Shown: positions 34,798 to 41,237 of the stretch, piece by piece | Numbering within the stretch: the stretch's first letter is position 1 | Layout of the letters: each line of letters opens with the position of its first letter | Source: Geomonas limicola | GTDB taxonomy: Bacteria > Desulfobacterota > Desulfuromonadia > Geobacterales > Geobacteraceae | Reading direction: 5' to 3' | Assembly: GCF_014193675.1 (NCBI RefSeq) | Contig: NZ_BLXZ01000005.1 | Span: forward strand, 1 to 64,000 | DNA: 64,000 bases | Made by a program: the position numbers and the translations under genes | Notes under the pieces: generated by a model | What the model was told of the DNA's origin: nothing | Seen by the model: the letters and a program-made list of their open reading frames with translations, nothing else | Database searches by the model: none

Positions 34798-35150
34798 CGC
34801 TCCTCCTGGCAGCCGCGGATTTCGTCCCGGCAGTAGTAGCACAGTTGCCACCCGAGGGAAAGATCTTCGGTGCAGCGACAGGCGATTTCGAAGAACAGCG
34901 GGTAGGGCGGTAGCGCCGGGATACCGTGCGGCATCACGGGGGGTCCCGCCTTTTTTATCTGCCGCTAACCATGCCCTGGGGATTTCTGGTGCGGACGCCC
35001 AGTTTTCGGACTACCCCGGATTGCGGAAATCTGTAAATATCTAATCCTGCGCCATTACCTGAGAAATTTTTCTTGACCTTATAAGCAATTGCCGCACAAT
35101 AGGGTGCTACCTCTCCTGTCAACTTTGCTGAGCACTGCAATGAGGATCGT

Positions 35151-36869
35151 GTGAATAACGAAGATCGGGATGAAAGCGAAGGGCTGTATCGGGTCATCGT
35201 CGACATGATCCCCCAGATCGTCTGGACCGCCACGCCGGAAGGATCCCAGGATACCGCCAACCTGCGCTGGTACGAATTCAACGGCCTGGTTCCTGGCGAG
35301 CCGGATCCGGAGCCCTGGCGCAGTATCCTCCACCCTGACGACGTCGCCATGACCGCCGCGCTGTGGTCACACTCCCTTGCCACCGGCGAGCCGTACAGTT
35401 GCCTGCATCGCAACAGGCGCCACGACGGCGAGTACCGCTGGGTCCTCTCCCGTGCACTCCCCCAACGTGATGCCTCGGGCCGCATTGTGCGCTGGATCGG
35501 CAGCGGCACTGACATCACCGAACAAAAACTCGCCGAAACCGAACTCATCAAGTACCGCGATCATCTCGAGGAGTTGGTCAGAGAGCGCACCGCCGAACTC
35601 GAGGTCGCCAAAGAGGCCGCCGAGATCGCCAGCCGCGAACTGCTGGAGGCAAACCAGCTGCTGGAGCGGCGTGTGGAGGAGCGTACCGCCGCGCTGAGGA
35701 ATACCGAGAAGGAACTGCGTCAGGCCCAGAAAATGGAGGCGATCGGCACCCTCGCTGCGGGTATCGCCCACGATTTCAACAACATCCTCACCTCTATCCT
35801 CGGTTTTACCGAGATGGCGCTGCTCAAGGTCCCGCATGACAACCCGGGCCGGTCCGACATGGAGCGCGTCTTCACCTCGGCGAAACGGGCCGCCGAACTG
35901 GTGCGCCAGATCCTGAGCTTCAGCCGCAAACGGGACCAGGAGACCAAGCCGGTGCACCTGATACCTCTCGTTGAGGATGTCTGCAAATTGCTCCGCTCCA
36001 CGCTTCCCACCACCATCGAGGTCCGCCCCGAGATCCGCGTCGAGCCGGACCAGGACAAGGTCCTGGCAGACGCTACCCAACTGCACCAGGTGCTGATGAA
36101 CCTGGCTACCAATGCGGTCCAGGCCATGCAACCCCGAGGGGGGCTTCTGGATATCGTCCTCTCCTTGGCAGAAGGCCGCGGGACGGGGGACGGCCCGGCT
36201 CCCCGGGGCGCGCGCCAGTTGCGGCTTTCGGTAAGGGATACCGGCAAGGGCATCGAACCCGGTCTGCTCGACAAGATCTTCGACCCGTATTTCACCACCA
36301 AGCCGGTCGGTGAGGGAACCGGCCTGGGACTTGCCGTGGTTCAGGGGATCATTAAAAGCCATGGCGGGGCCATCTCCGTCCAGAGCGAGCCGGGGGTGTG
36401 CACCAGGTTCGACGTGCTCCTCCCCTTGGTGAGCGATGCCGTGGTTCCGGAAGAGGTTGCCCTGGAGCAGAACCTGCGGGGGAGTGAGCGGATCCTCTTC
36501 GTCGATGACGAGGAAGCACTCACCGTCTTGGGGCGCGAGATTCTGGAATGCCTCGGGTACCGCGTGACTACCGCGTCGAGAAGCCAGGATGCCCTGCAGA
36601 TTTTCCGCTCCGATCCCGGAGCATTCGATCTCCTGATCACCGATCTGACCATGCCGGGCATGACGGGCAAAGTGCTCGCGGAAGAGGTCGCCGCGATCCG
36701 GGCGGGAATCCCGGTCATCCTCTGCACCGGGTTTAGGGATTCGGTGGAAACCAGTGACAGCGGCCGTGGCATCGATGCCTGTCTTATGAAACCTTATACG
36801 ATGCCGACGCTGGGGGCGCTGGTTCGCCAGGTGCTGGACCGGCGGGGGGAGTCGTTTTCAGTGCTGTGA
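35151..36869 (+). CDS. Hybrid histidine kinase: PAS, coiled coil, kinase, receiver
   Basis: The 572-residue protein has one PAS domain (about 10-122, ending SGTDITEQKLAE), a coiled coil of about 60 residues, HisKA with GIAHDFNNILTSI, an HATPase (DTGKGIEPGLLDKIFDPYF ... GTGLGLAVV) and a C-terminal receiver (VDDEEA, phospho-acceptor in LLITDLTMPGMTG, Lys in CLMKPYT). There is no membrane span. The GTG start has GAGG upstream; the ATG eight bases before it is out of frame and stops at once. No output domain is present, so phosphate is either held or passed to a separate protein. Confidence 0.92.
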   Translation: MNNEDRDESEGLYRVIVDMIPQIVWTATPEGSQDTANLRWYEFNGLVPGEPDPEPWRSILHPDDVAMTAALWSHSLATGEPYSCLHRNRRHDGEYRWVLSRALPQRDASGRIVRWIGSGTDITEQKLAETELIKYRDHLEELVRERTAELEVAKEAAEIASRELLEANQLLERRVEERTAALRNTEKELRQAQKMEAIGTLAAGIAHDFNNILTSILGFTEMALLKVPHDNPGRSDMERVFTSAKRAAELVRQILSFSRKRDQETKPVHLIPLVEDVCKLLRSTLPTTIEVRPEIRVEPDQDKVLADATQLHQVLMNLATNAVQAMQPRGGLLDIVLSLAEGRGTGDGPAPRGARQLRLSVRDTGKGIEPGLLDKIFDPYFTTKPVGEGTGLGLAVVQGIIKSHGGAISVQSEPGVCTRFDVLLPLVSDAVVPEEVALEQNLRGSERILFVDDEEALTVLGREILECLGYRVTTASRSQDALQIFRSDPGAFDLLITDLTMPGMTGKVLAEEVAAIRAGIPVILCTGFRDSVETSDSGRGIDACLMKPYTMPTLGALVRQVLDRRGESFSVL

Positions 36870-36929
36870 GCCAGGGGCGATCCGGTTTCTGCACGAGCAG
36901 GACCGCAACTGTTTTTGGGGAGGTCTGAC

Positions 36930-37415
36930 ATGTGGAACTACGTGACGCAAGCATTAACGGCCCTGGTCAGTTTTGCCATGATGGTCATGCTGATGACGGC
37001 CGCGGTCAAGCGGGGAGTCTCGGTTCCCTTTGCCATGTTCGTCCTCTCGCTGGTACTGGTCGTTTCCTTTGGCGCCTGGTCCTCCAGCGAGTGGGGGATG
37101 CTGTCCATCTGGAAGACCGCGGTCCCCCTGCTGATCGGCGCCGGGCTGTGCAGCGTGCTGGGCAACTGGGCCATGTTCCTGGCGACCTCCTCAGGCGCCA
37201 ATGCCGGGTACGCGCTGGCCATCATCGGCTGTCAGTCAGCCCTGGTGCTGGTGCTTTCCTACTGGTTTCTCGGCGGCGAGTTGCACTGGCTGCGCCTGGT
37301 CGGCATCGTCATCTGCATGGTCGGTGTCCTCATCATCAGCTGGCCGCTTCCTGCCGCCTTGTCCAAAAATACCTCCCTCGCTGATGGCTCAGCCAGTGGA
37401 TTGGAAAAGCCATAA
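36930..37415 (+). CDS. Small EamA-like membrane protein (half transporter)
   Basis: About 140 residues form four or five membrane helices, with the conserved EamA end pattern YALAIIGCQSALVLVLSYWFLGGELHWLRLVGI (shown in part) in which the E-L-H turn precedes the last helix. EamA transporters usually contain two such halves in 300 residues; this one has a single half and should act as a dimer, like small multidrug exporters. GGGAGG lies just before the ATG. The substrate is unknown. It is the last ordinary gene before the accessory region. Confidence 0.75.
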   Translation: MWNYVTQALTALVSFAMMVMLMTAAVKRGVSVPFAMFVLSLVLVVSFGAWSSSEWGMLSIWKTAVPLLIGAGLCSVLGNWAMFLATSSGANAGYALAIIGCQSALVLVLSYWFLGGELHWLRLVGIVICMVGVLIISWPLPAALSKNTSLADGSASGLEKP

Positions 37416-37880
37416 GCTCCACTCTGGATGTACCTCTCCTCGTCTCCTAAGCCAAGACCCGCCAGGCTACTCCGCCCCTTATCGCACCTGAAACCGTCAT
37501 GGTTTCCTGTATTCCCTCCCCTGACACCGCAGGTGAGCCCTGCGCAAGGGTTCACCTGCGCTTCTGAGAGAAACCGGGGGGAGCCCGTGTCTTTGCCGTG
37601 GCCGATACTGCTGCGACTACTGGGGAAACCTCTCTTTGTCGAGCCGCTTGTTGGGCGTTGTAAATTCCAAGATGGAATGCGAATTGTTTCGCAAGGATCT
37701 TAGAGACCTAAAGGTGTTCTGATTATGACTTAATTCCAGAAGACGGCGCGAATCACTTGCAAATTCCATTTGCAGCTGCGAATGGTTTAAGCTACTGCTT
37801 GGCCTTACCAATCCTGGGTGGCATTGTTGGGCTCTTCAGGATTTTCCGTGGGTATTCCAAAGCGCAGTTACCGAATCTGT

Positions 37881-37927
37881 TTCGGGAGCAGGGGGGCGGA
37901 GGTTCGAATCCTCTCATTCCGACCATT
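37881..37927 (+). repeat. tRNA-Pro (CGG) 3'-end fragment, copy 1 (att-like direct repeat)
   Basis: The fragment starts in the anticodon loop TTCGGGA, continues with the 3' anticodon stem GCAGG, a full T-arm (GGAGGTTCGAATCCTC) and acceptor CATTCCG followed by ACCA. The 5' half of the tRNA is absent: no CGGAATG is found at the needed distance. It matches the copy at 39848-39894 in 46 of 47 bases. Sequence identity stops sharply on both sides, as in att sites made by integration at tRNA 3' ends. Confidence 0.85.
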
Positions 37928-38116
37928 TAAAATCAATAGCCCTGGGCATCCGCCGGGGGCTTTTTGCGTTTCGGCCCCGGTCAACATCCGGTCCACGCGA
38001 GAAACTCCTTGCAGCATCCAGGCTTTCCGGGTGCGTCTCCCAGCTGCCACTTGCGCCACCCTTGAGACTCTAGTGCGGAGGCGGCCCCTTTCAGTCCGTG
38101 CATCAAGTGTTTCCGC

Positions 38117-38153
38117 TTGACATGCAGCGACAAACATCCTACTGTAAATTACA
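38117..38153 (+). promoter_or_regulatory. Promoter with PadR-like operator for the permease cassette
   Basis: TTGACA (38117-38122), a 17-base spacer and TACTGT (38140-38145) form a promoter. The perfect palindrome TGTAAATTACA (38143-38153) overlaps the -10. PadR repressors bind AT-rich dyads of this kind, and the third gene of the operon encodes one, so autoregulation is likely. Confidence 0.65.
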
Positions 38154-38197
38154 TATAGATGCATTACGCTTTTCCCTGTAAGATGCGGAGGTGTCCG

Positions 38198-38671
38198 ATG
38201 TTGGCCTTCATTTTTTGGACAGTAACCACGGTGGCGGTGCTGGCATCCTGGTGGCGGGACCCGGGCCGGACCAAGAAGGCGCTCCAGACCAGCGGGCGGT
38301 CGCTCAAAGCGCTAGTTCCGAATGTGCTTGGGATGATCGCCTTGGTTGGCCTGGTGCTGGCGCTGGTCCCACAGGAGGTGCTGACCCGGTTGTTCACTTT
38401 TAAAGGGGTGGGTGGCTTTGCCTTGGTCTCGCTGGTCGGCGCAGTCGTCACGATGCCCGCGCCGATCGCCTTTCCGCTCGCAGGCTCGCTGCTGGGGGTG
38501 GGAGCGGCCCCGGCCGCCCTGGCCGCTTTCATCACCACGCTGACGATGGTCGGCATCGTTTCGGCGCCGATTGAGGCTTCCTACTTCGGGGTAAGGTTCA
38601 CTCTACTCCGCCAATCCGCAAGTTTTGTCGCCGCGATCCTGATCGGTCTGTTCATGGGAGTGTTTCTATGA
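38198..38671 (+). CDS. Permease, first half of a split YraQ/ArsP-like transporter
   Basis: This 157-residue protein has about four membrane helices, with the loop GAVVTMPAPIAFPLAGSLLG and SAPIEASYFGVRFTLLRQSA (20 residues) near the end. Such Gly/Pro-rich re-entrant motifs are typical of DUF318 permeases (YraQ, ArsP), which are usually about 300-400 residues long. GGAGG stands before the chosen ATG. The stop overlaps the start of the next gene (ATGA), which supplies a second half. Substrate unknown; related permeases export organoarsenicals or other metalloid compounds. Confidence 0.72.
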   Translation: MLAFIFWTVTTVAVLASWWRDPGRTKKALQTSGRSLKALVPNVLGMIALVGLVLALVPQEVLTRLFTFKGVGGFALVSLVGAVVTMPAPIAFPLAGSLLGVGAAPAALAAFITTLTMVGIVSAPIEASYFGVRFTLLRQSASFVAAILIGLFMGVFL

Positions 38672-39213
38672 TGACAGTTCACCTTAAGCAATACCGGCTG
38701 TTCCTGGTCGTCCTGACAATCAACCTGGCGCTGATGCTCTGGCAACCCGCCCTGGCTGGGCATTCGGTGACCAACTCTCTCAAATTCCTGACCGAAGTTC
38801 TGCTGGTTCTTCCGCCGGTCATGGTAGTCATGGGACTGCTTGATGCATGGGTGCCCCGGGCCTTGGTGGAAGCCCACCTCGGACCGGGAACTGGGCTGCG
38901 CGGCGCCTTTTTTGCCATCCTGCTTGGGACCGCCGCCGCCGGACCGATCTATGCCGCGTTCCCCATTGCGCTTTCCTTGAAAAACAAGGGGGCCCAGTTG
39001 GGGAACATCGTGATCTTCCTGGGGACTTGGGCCAGCATTAAAATCCCCATGATCATCATGGAAAGCAGCTTCATGGGACTGCGCTTTGCCCTGTTGCGGC
39101 TGGCGTTCACCGTGCCGTGCGTCCTGGCCTGCGGTTACCTGATGGAAAAGATAATGCCCGGAGAAGTCATGCCTGAAAACGGCGGTTCCGGCTTGACGGA
39201 GGAGACAGTATGA
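38668..39213 (+). CDS. Permease, second half of a split YraQ/ArsP-like transporter
   Basis: The 181-residue protein has about five membrane helices and the motif GTAAAGPIYAAFPIALSLKN, the counterpart of the APIAFPLAG loop in the preceding gene, and MIIMESSFMGLRFALLRLA, which parallels its FGVRFTLLRQSA. The two genes therefore look like the two homologous halves of one transporter encoded separately. Starts and stops overlap by four bases on both sides, so the three cassette genes are translated as a unit. Confidence 0.72.
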   Translation: MMTVHLKQYRLFLVVLTINLALMLWQPALAGHSVTNSLKFLTEVLLVLPPVMVVMGLLDAWVPRALVEAHLGPGTGLRGAFFAILLGTAAAGPIYAAFPIALSLKNKGAQLGNIVIFLGTWASIKIPMIIMESSFMGLRFALLRLAFTVPCVLACGYLMEKIMPGEVMPENGGSGLTEETV

Positions 39214-39554
39214 GCGCAAAGGGAAGACAGCATTACCGGCACCTCCCCGCGTTCATCCTGTTGGTGCTAGCGGATAATCCGGTGCACGGCAGTGCTATCC
39301 ACACCCTGTTGATGGAACGTATGGGGCTGTCCCGGCCGGACAGTGGGGCCATCTACCGCACCCTGCAACAACTGGAACAGGAAGGCGAGGTCGTCTTTGA
39401 ATGGGATACCAGCGGGAACGGACCGGCGCGGAAGGTCTACCGTCTCACACCGGCGGGATGGGAAAAGCTGGAGCAGTGGCGGGAAGACATCGAGATGCGG
39501 CTGGCTAACCTTCAGAACTTCCTGAAAATTTACGCAGCGTTGGTGAAGCGGTAA
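39210..39554 (+). CDS. PadR-family transcriptional regulator
   Basis: The 114-residue winged-helix protein has the PadR core: LPAFILLVLADNPVHGSAIH, the recognition region SRPDSGAIYRTLQQLEQEG and the wing GPARKVYRLTPAGWEKLEQW, with a short C-terminal dimer helix. It overlaps the second permease gene by four bases. The dyad in the cassette promoter is its likely target, so it probably represses the transporter until a substrate is present. Confidence 0.87.
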   Translation: MSAKGRQHYRHLPAFILLVLADNPVHGSAIHTLLMERMGLSRPDSGAIYRTLQQLEQEGEVVFEWDTSGNGPARKVYRLTPAGWEKLEQWREDIEMRLANLQNFLKIYAALVKR

Positions 39555-39847
39555 AGCTCCACTCTTTGTGCCGGTTTTGGCCCTCCTGGTCCCGCCAGCA
39601 TCAGGAATAGAATCGCTGAAACGGAGTATGCAGATCGCCGAGTCGCAGAGCAGAACTGCAAAGGACGAAGCCTCTTAGGCGAGTGGTGGGATTGTTCCTT
39701 TCTCCGGTCCAAGTTGTTCGCCTTTGTCTTCCATGCTCGCTGCCGCGGCTCTCAAAGGCCGTCCTTTCCTAGCCTCGCGCTAAATGGACTCCTTATTTTT
39801 GGTCAGTTTGCGCACTGCTCTCCCCTCTACCCTGCTAGTGCGTCGGC

Positions 39848-39894
39848 TTCGGGAGCAGGGGGGCGGGGGTTCGAATCCTCTCATTCCGACCATT
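39848..39894 (+). repeat. tRNA-Pro (CGG) 3'-end fragment, copy 2 (att-like direct repeat)
   Basis: This is the same 47 bases as 37881-37927 with one change (A to G in the T-stem, GCGGGGGTTCG). Again it starts in the anticodon loop and has no 5' half. With copy 1 it bounds a segment of about 1.97 kb that carries the permease/PadR operon. Confidence 0.85.
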
Positions 39895-39902
39895 AATTGA
39901 AT

Positions 39903-39931
39903 AGGCCCTTGGCGAAAGCCGAGGGCCTTTT
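39903..39931 (+). terminator. Terminator behind tRNA-Pro fragment copy 2
   Basis: An 11-bp stem (AGGCCCTTGGC / GCCGAGGGCCT, one G-U) with a GAAA tetraloop and a short T run. It sits 9 bases after the tRNA fragment, where a tRNA terminator is expected. Confidence 0.8.
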
Positions 39932-40432
39932 CCGTTGTGGCTCCGGTCCTCCTCCGGTCCGGAGAAAACTTTCCTTTCGCAGCTCATCATTTCTCCCTAC
40001 GACACGGAAAACCCGGAAGAGCCTGAACTTTACCATAGGGATCAGTTGCGAAAACAGCGCCTTTACGAACAGGGATGGTTTGTTGGAGAAAACGTAGATG
40101 ATATGCCTCGAGCATTCACTGATATTGTTGCGCATTACCTAGCTGGTGGCATCGCACAAGAGAAATATCAGCTGATGGAGGGGGGGCATGACGCACATCG
40201 ACTTAAAGTGGCGACCAGAGATGATGACGAAGAGGTCGAGCATATCATCCGAACAAAAGACGAAAACGGTGGAGGGACAATAAGGAAAGAAGCTGTAGCA
40301 GAAGATGTGAGACAGACGATATCCATGACAGCGGTTTGGTCAGTAATTGAAGAACTCGCGGCTGCGATTGCAGAACATAAGGAGATTCAGGTGGAGGCGC
40401 TTGCGCCTTTTTGGGCTCGGCTTGGAACATAA
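39905..40432 (+). pseudogene. Orphan open frame, probably 5'-truncated gene
   Basis: The frame stays open for 176 codons but has only a TTG far upstream and no ribosome site. Its first part runs through the terminator stem, so any original start has been lost. From about 39980 the translation looks like real protein: charged and helical, with YDTENPEEPELYHRDQLRKQ, RAFTDIVAHYLAGGIAQEKY and SVIEELAAAIAEHKEIQVEA. I do not recognise the family. Its place right behind the tRNA-Pro fragment suggests the tail of a gene cut by integration or deletion. Confidence 0.45.
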
Positions 40433-40607
40433 GGTGCTCGAGCGCCCGCCTTTGCCGCGATGGAAGGGGCAATAGGCTTTCGGCACCTCCGGCGGCCGCG
40501 CCTGCATCCTTTCTCGGGATGAGTTGCCAGTACCCCGGAGGTGAGCCTCAGACATCGACACTGTCATCCACGAGCAGCAACGGAGGATTTTAACACGGAG
40601 TCGTTCA

Positions 40608-40714
40608 TGTTCAACTCCTCGATTGACCCGCCATCGGCGTCCAGAATGACCCGCCCACCAGACCTAATGTAATGGTGGCGCCTCTCCTGGGTCAGATTTC
40701 TATGCCGATTCACA
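40608..40714. mobile_element. Probable remnant of an IS21-family element (both ends, no transposase)
   Basis: The right part, GGGTCAGATTTCTATGCCGA (40689-40708) and TTCACA, has the GGGTCA-TTT-TGCCGATT pattern found in terminal repeats of IS21-type elements. About 30 bases upstream the inverted form occurs twice: GATTGACCC at 40621 and ATCGGCGTCCAGAATGACCC at 40633-40652. No istA or istB remains. It could be an internally deleted copy or a small non-autonomous derivative. The pattern match is from memory. Confidence 0.4.
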
Positions 40715-41045
40715 CCCAGTCTTGAAAAACTGCAAATTGTTATCGAAGCAAGCCAGAGATAAGCCGAGAACTAAGGCAAAGGGGGCACGGGGTAGGGGGG
40801 CCCTAACTGGGGCCTGAGGTCGAGTAGCCTACCACCCTGCGCGGGCCCTGCCTCTCGTCGGCTTGAGAACTTTCCACCAGTGCCTTCACTTATGGACTAC
40901 AGCCCTTGGGTTTTGTGCAGCCACTGTTACCGAATGCCCAAGGATCTTCCCCCTATTTCCCTTGGTCGCTACGCAATGGGGAAGGCCACGACGCTACCCC
41001 AAACGAAAAAGGAGCAAGGCTCCATCACCTAACTCCTTGTTTCTT

Positions 41046-41090
41046 TGGAGGAGATGAACGGGATCGAACCGTCAACCTATGCGTGCGAAC
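41046..41090 (-). repeat. tRNA 3'-end relic (Ala-like T-arm) on the minus strand
   Basis: On the minus strand the order is AGGTT, T-arm GACGGTTCGATCCCGTT, acceptor CATCTCC and TCCA with a genuine CCA end. The T-arm is the common bacterial tRNA-Ala form. No anticodon arm or 5' half that pairs can be found upstream. It is another orphan 3' end, opposite in direction to the tRNA-Pro copies, at the far side of the accessory stretch. Confidence 0.55.
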
Positions 41091-41237
41091 TCTCAAGACG
41101 GTTAGACAACTCGTCACAAAGGATGCCTTTGTCAATGCCATATATGCATTGCACCTTGGTGGTCCGCAAACTGTTCGCATCGTCTCTTGAAAATTCGCAT
41201 CCTCTCCTACAATTTACAGGCGTAAGCAAAAAACAGG

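Follow-up and report, generated by a model that had tools for sequence, protein, structure and literature searches.

The 64-kb stretch of DNA analysed here (the window), which constitutes the start of contig C5 in the genome of a Geomonas-group bacterium (5.23 Mb, assembled in 17 contigs), contains two 3' halves of a tRNA-Pro(CGG) gene that are arranged as direct repeats around a small operon encoding two permeases and a regulator. Based on sequence comparison, we consider it probable that this arrangement represents a CIME-like, integrase-less tRNA-Pro element, which would have been relocated from the tRNA gene by transposition of the IS type. According to this proposal, at least one and probably two integrase-less elements would have been stacked by site-specific recombination at the tRNA-Pro(CGG) gene, with each 3' half together with its terminator and arm constituting an element end left by the recombination. 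The array would later have moved from the tRNA gene to a position upstream of fur-feoB as passenger of a unit with ISL3 ends (37830-40023). The features of the region are the following.

34808-41223, no strand assigned: block that the nearest relative, G024, lacks, by comparison of flanking genes in G024, G026 and G027
37830-37853, plus strand: IS end of the ISL3 family (left inverted repeat, GGCTCTTCAGGATTTTCCGTGGGT), matching the right end of an IS in G015 in 24 of 24 positions
37854-37880, plus strand: left arm of copy 1, common to an unlinked copy in G018
37881-37925, plus strand: tRNA-Pro(CGG) 3' half, copy 1, anticodon loop to CCA
37938-37961, plus strand: terminator-like hairpin after copy 1 (-18.3 kcal/mol, z -3.1)
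37966-38010, plus strand: diverged downstream arm (CCCCGGTCAACATCCGGTCC), aligned with the arms of other copies
38117-38155, plus strand: promoter TTGACA-17-TACTGT with PadR-type dyad, conserved in front of the homologous operons of G011, G016, G020 and G021
38198-38671, plus strand: half-size ArsP_1-type permease A (PF03773, E 8.9e-6, below the curated cut-off)
38668-39213, plus strand: half-size ArsP_1-type permease B (PF03773, E 4e-11)
39210-39554, plus strand: PadR-family regulator (PF03551, E 3.5e-18)
39848-39892, plus strand: tRNA-Pro(CGG) 3' half, copy 2, anticodon loop to CCA
39903-39928, plus strand: terminator-like hairpin after copy 2 (-26.2 kcal/mol, z -5.7)
39942-39960, plus strand: repeat arm TCCGGTCC-CTC-TCCGGTCC, with seven exact occurrences in 19 Geomonas genomes
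40003-40023, minus strand: IS end of the ISL3 family (right inverted repeat), with 90% complementarity to the left one (28.4 bits)
40024-40432, plus strand: truncated open reading frame just outside the right IS end, part of a frame (39935-40432) without Pfam match

The direct repeats at 37881-37927 and 39848-39894 agree in 46 of 47 bases, with an A at 37899 facing a G at 39866 as sole mismatch, a near-identity that is far beyond chance. Both correspond to the 3' half of tRNA-Pro(CGG) from the anticodon loop (TTCGGGA) through CCA. The coordinates and the single difference given in an earlier sequence-only reading could thus be reproduced, and its statement that neither copy is attached to an intact tRNA holds, as ARAGORN calls no tRNA in the window and the only intact gene resides on a different contig. 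The same reading had described both copies as lacking the 5' half, which is correct for the half as such, except that a weak residual resemblance to it persists beside the copies (p 0.02 and 0.05). Compared to the 3' half of the intact gene, copy 1 differs at one base of the variable loop and copy 2 at two bases, with both copies having G in the variable loop (GGGGGGCGG) in place of the T of the intact gene. The same variable-loop G is found in a pseudo-tRNA-Pro of G011 (C2:1040708), which has lost 12 bp of the D-arm through a deletion between two TAGCGCA repeats. The hairpins following the two copies, already noted as terminator-like stems, both fold better than shuffled sequences. An arm with repeated TCCGGTCC on the 3' side of the terminator is common to many tRNA-Pro 3' copies, and all seven exact matches to the arm of copy 2 are located at such copies, one of them being a strongly decayed unlinked copy that is detectable only by this motif. 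Elsewhere in the window, a long coding sequence at its start contains at least seven tandem repeats of 159 bp (974-2227).

The sole intact tRNA-Pro(CGG) gene is located on contig C2 (35407-35483). Its terminal 25 nucleotides occur at exactly four sites in the genome, comprising the gene itself, the two window copies and a further 3' half at C2:48431-48475, which lies 13 kb downstream of the gene and about 200 bp from a gene for a P4-type integrase (Arm-DNA-bind_3/Phage_integrase; C2:46906-48231). The search suggested by the sequence-only reading has thus returned one intact gene and one additional fragment at a P4-type integrase island. By its sequence, this 13-kb segment is a textbook tRNA island, which would identify the target of the original integrations.

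A single intact tRNA-Pro(CGG) gene is present in each of 18 out of 18 Geomonas relatives, and most of them contain additional 3' halves, which are placed in tandem behind the tRNA or far from it. Tandem copies were found in G011, G017, G018, G019, G024, G025, G026 and G027 at intervals between 1.0 and 21 kb. Their cargo is varied. The short intervals lack an integrase and hold one gene or one operon each, with products such as a PEP-CTERM protein, an FkbM methyltransferase and a beta-helix lipoprotein; antitoxin-like genes also occur. Unlinked copies are found in G011 (200 bp after tRNA-Cys), G017, G018 (in a TIR/caspase-like region), G021, G022 and G027, and in G006, which belongs to another genus. 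Unlinked copies in G015 and G023, which are placed about 2 kb from contig ends and could be joined to the tRNA via an unassembled island, were excluded from the displaced count, and the displaced status of a copy at a contig end in G016 (C21) is uncertain. In G017 (C1:1405298-1406809), a tmRNA gene is followed by a P4-type integrase and, 120 bp after the latter, by a decayed tRNA-Pro 3' fragment. No similarity is found left of the anticodon loop at the integrase-adjacent copies of this genome and of G018, whereas many other copies retain traces of the tRNA 5' half. Because the 3' halves of relatives, whether tandem or distant, share terminators and in many cases also the TCCGGTCC-repeat arm, the window copies can be regarded as attachment-site scars, which would originally have been placed by a tRNA-Pro integrase. 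The first step of the proposal, a stacking of elements at tRNA-Pro, is on comparative grounds strongly supported. These data also sustain the earlier assignment of the repeats as traces of site-specific integration at tRNA-Pro(CGG), and the arrangement in the window is that of stacked integrase-less islands, one of the two origins that had been envisaged. Carriage of the fragments by phages was considered and rejected, since viral contigs with the 3' end hold complete phage tRNA-Pro genes rather than fragments; phage and plasmid collections returned only short matches, which carry a tRNA-Pro annotation in a Rhizobium phage record.

Between the two copies, the matches of both permeases to PF03773 and of the regulator to PF03551, together with the promoter conserved in Geomonas, bear out the description of a complete permease-permease-PadR unit. 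The ACTGT..ACAGT dyad is kept upstream of Geomonas homologues and its right half is degraded in the window. Permease A shares 59-62% identity with Geomonas homologues, and permease B shares 67-71% with Geomonas proteins and at most 73% with those of other Geobacteraceae. We have rejected the possibility that this unit is simply the native copy of the genus, as the copies of relatives, which adjoin a chemotaxis gene, are 84% identical to each other and only about 68% to the window version. The unit has probably been acquired, as judged from its protein divergence (67-71%), which is larger than that of fur-feoB, and its restriction to Geobacteraceae. Open reading frame and tblastn checks detected neither a tyrosine integrase nor an ISL3 transposase related to those tested in the window, and no integrase or transfer genes between the repeats, in agreement with the earlier statement that no integrase is present.

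Both tRNA copies and the operon are enclosed by inverted ISL3 ends at 37830 and 40023, which had escaped the sequence-only reading. The left end matches an intact ISL3 element of G015, which encodes a transposase (PF01610) and is bordered on both sides by the 8-bp target duplication CATTTCTT, and the score of the right end (28.4 bits) compares to a maximum of 22 in shuffled sequences. This genome has just four occurrences of the end motif, forming two inverted pairs, one in the window and the other in a 391-bp MITE. A search with one inverted-repeat pattern, allowing at most one mismatch, detected no autonomous ISL3 element of this group in the genome. The ISL3-derived MITE (G000:C2:687176-687566) is flanked by T-runs, retains 18 residues of the transposase and is located just after a glmS-like gene. 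In 277 genomes of the class, the sequence that runs from the IS end across the left arm into the anticodon loop is present only in the window and at G018:C1:373843-373884. As the two loci become homologous exactly at the outermost base of this IS end, the limit of homology is a transposon boundary and not a tRNA attachment-site boundary. A right IS end was not found at the displaced copy of G018. The main weakness of transposition as an explanation is the lack of an 8-bp target duplication around the ISL3 ends of the window (CATTGTTG compared to TGAACTTT). The reading frame spanning the right end (39935-40432) is rare in the class, with one weak homologue in G006. The idea that 37830-40023 has interrupted a single gene was dismissed, since joining of the flanks generates a frame of about 170 residues in one of three frames, for which homologue support is nil.

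An independent case is provided by G022, where the displaced tRNA-Pro copy is part of an insertion of 2.7 kb. This has terminal inverted repeats of 26 bp, which are 81% identical and share their first 13 bases, and a 5-bp target duplication (GTTGT). The flanks of this insertion are continuous in G023, and the insert is also missing from G015. Its boundary is located about 200 bp beyond the tRNA half. The insert shows that tRNA-Pro fragments move as passengers of transposons in Geomonas. A search for inverted repeats around other displaced copies has yielded a 26-bp pair in G017 (26.9 bits) and no clear pair in G006, G011, G018, G021 and G027. Separately, G022 and G023 share a 3,964-bp block (L064 8926-12889 and L128 4677-8640, respectively) that contains short-chain dehydrogenases, a regulator and an epimerase-like gene and adjoins a lexA/imuB-like pair. 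With 99.8% identity in the block compared to about 80% in the surrounding DNA, it is to all appearances a very recent transfer.

We then consider how the unit came to reside next to fur-feoB. In G024, whose feoB is about 91% identical at the DNA level, window position 34807 is joined to 41224 with 157 bp in between, and in G026 and G027 the same two flanking genes are adjacent without a homologue of the block between them. Comparison of the locus in relatives, which the sequence-only reading had recommended, thus reveals a region that is not conserved in all of them. The proposal that the segment 37928-39894 was itself the unit that jumped finds no support in this form, as the block missing in G024 is larger, the ISL3 ends enclose the repeat pair and the displaced copy in G022 travels in a transposon that has inverted repeats and a target duplication. 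No sister genome lacking exactly 37830-40023 was found, the missing block amounting to 6.4 kb. This block also includes a kinase-EamA pair (34808-37415), which in many relatives is located about 115-120 kb from feoB and is found beside it only here, with EamA being missing from G024; for this reason, the locus is also a point of rearrangement. The right edge of the block coincides with a second, different tRNA-like 3' end followed by a hairpin on the minus strand (GACGGTTCGATCCCGTTCATCTCCTCCA; 41023-41130), for which no parent tRNA was found in this genome at up to three mismatches.

In light of these observations, islands stacked behind tRNA-Pro might have been carried in part to fur-feoB by an inversion or translocation, with the ISL3 ends being incidental or serving as recombination points. 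Such a process would account for the lack of a target duplication and for the differing positions of an AAA gene, fur-feoB and the kinase-EamA pair among relatives, which mark a breakpoint in gene order. We still regard it as unlikely, since in relatives with complete or near-complete genomes the distance between tRNA-Pro and feoB is about 1 Mb or more, unlinked copies are found at many unrelated sites and the case of G022 is a clean insertion with an empty site in G023. Relocation as part of an ISL3-ended unit, the second step of our preferred proposal, is instead supported by the IS ends and the sequences of G018 and G022, and weakened by the missing duplication and the lack of a strain with the exact absence. 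An ISL3 transposase would then have moved the unit 37830-40023, which is presumably no longer mobile.

The minimal cassette of the sequence-only reading, which a tRNA-Pro integrase acting in trans would have inserted directly at this place as a secondary site, is in our view quite unlikely. A tRNA-Pro integrase is encoded in the same genome, and integrase-less segments of 1-2 kb with a single operon between 3' copies are found in G006, G017, G019, G024 and G025. This mode of insertion, however, predicts chromosomal DNA to the left of the anticodon-loop point, where the left arm of copy 1 and the IS end instead recur at an unrelated locus of G018, and it conflicts with the position of the insert boundary in G022 outside the tRNA half. 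A broader variant, in which Geomonas and relatives would share a tRNA-anchored system of 1-2 kb single-operon cassettes, each beginning with a tRNA-Pro 3' half followed by a terminator and an arm of TCCGGTCC repeats, strikes us as improbable; P4-type integrases would place such cassettes in trans behind tRNA-Pro, and several IS families would then carry them as passengers to other loci. Finally, it is very doubtful that the 3' half and terminator have been kept for a function, for instance as a transcriptional insulator in front of cargo, instead of being a scar, since despite conserved terminators and arms and their location upstream of cargo in the window and G018, unlinked copies are strongly decayed in the tRNA portion and sometimes in the hairpin (G017, G018 and G027).

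The relocated element proposed here would work like two known types of elements without being a member of either, as it deviates from each in one tested feature, from CIMEs in its location with respect to the tRNA gene and from mobile insertion cassettes in the lack of a target duplication. CIMEs and tandem accretion at tRNA 3' ends have been reviewed (PMC5704250). As in these elements, cargo in the window is flanked by direct repeats of the target 3' end (attL/attR-like), genes for integration and transfer are absent and relatives contain tandem copies behind the tRNA. In contrast, the pair in the window is located neither at the target gene, which is found on another contig, nor at an adjoining element, and the unit resides within ISL3 ends and is confined to 2 kb and one operon. 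The ssrA islands of Dehalococcoides, which employ a serine recombinase, have all repeats within 100 kb of ssrA and about half of which lack an integration module (PMC3146451), similarly show tandem 3' fragments of the target RNA and a conserved base that differs between gene and fragments, whereas Geomonas has a P4-type tyrosine integrase, tRNA-Pro as target and many unlinked fragments. With mobile insertion cassettes and transporter IS (for terms see PMC3129680), the unit 37830-40023 shares the inverted terminal repeats of one known IS family around passenger genes without a transposase, but its passenger includes tRNA attachment scars. A metallophosphoesterase gene in G019 (C10:669740-670664) is similarly enclosed by inverted ISL3 ends without a transposase, as in a mobile insertion cassette.

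Fragments of tRNA 3' ends that are found far from any tRNA are usually taken as island ends in place. With many tRNA-Pro fragments being displaced, methods of island mapping that rely on such fragments would therefore call false islands. The recurrent integrase-less segments of 1-2 kb would render movement in trans directly testable. For Geomonas, the proposed history implies two mechanisms of mobility acting in sequence, where site-specific integration at a tRNA would generate a small unit of cargo equipped with a terminator, and transposon ends would spread this unit, so that simple transposon ends may carry it to sites beyond the reach of the integrase.
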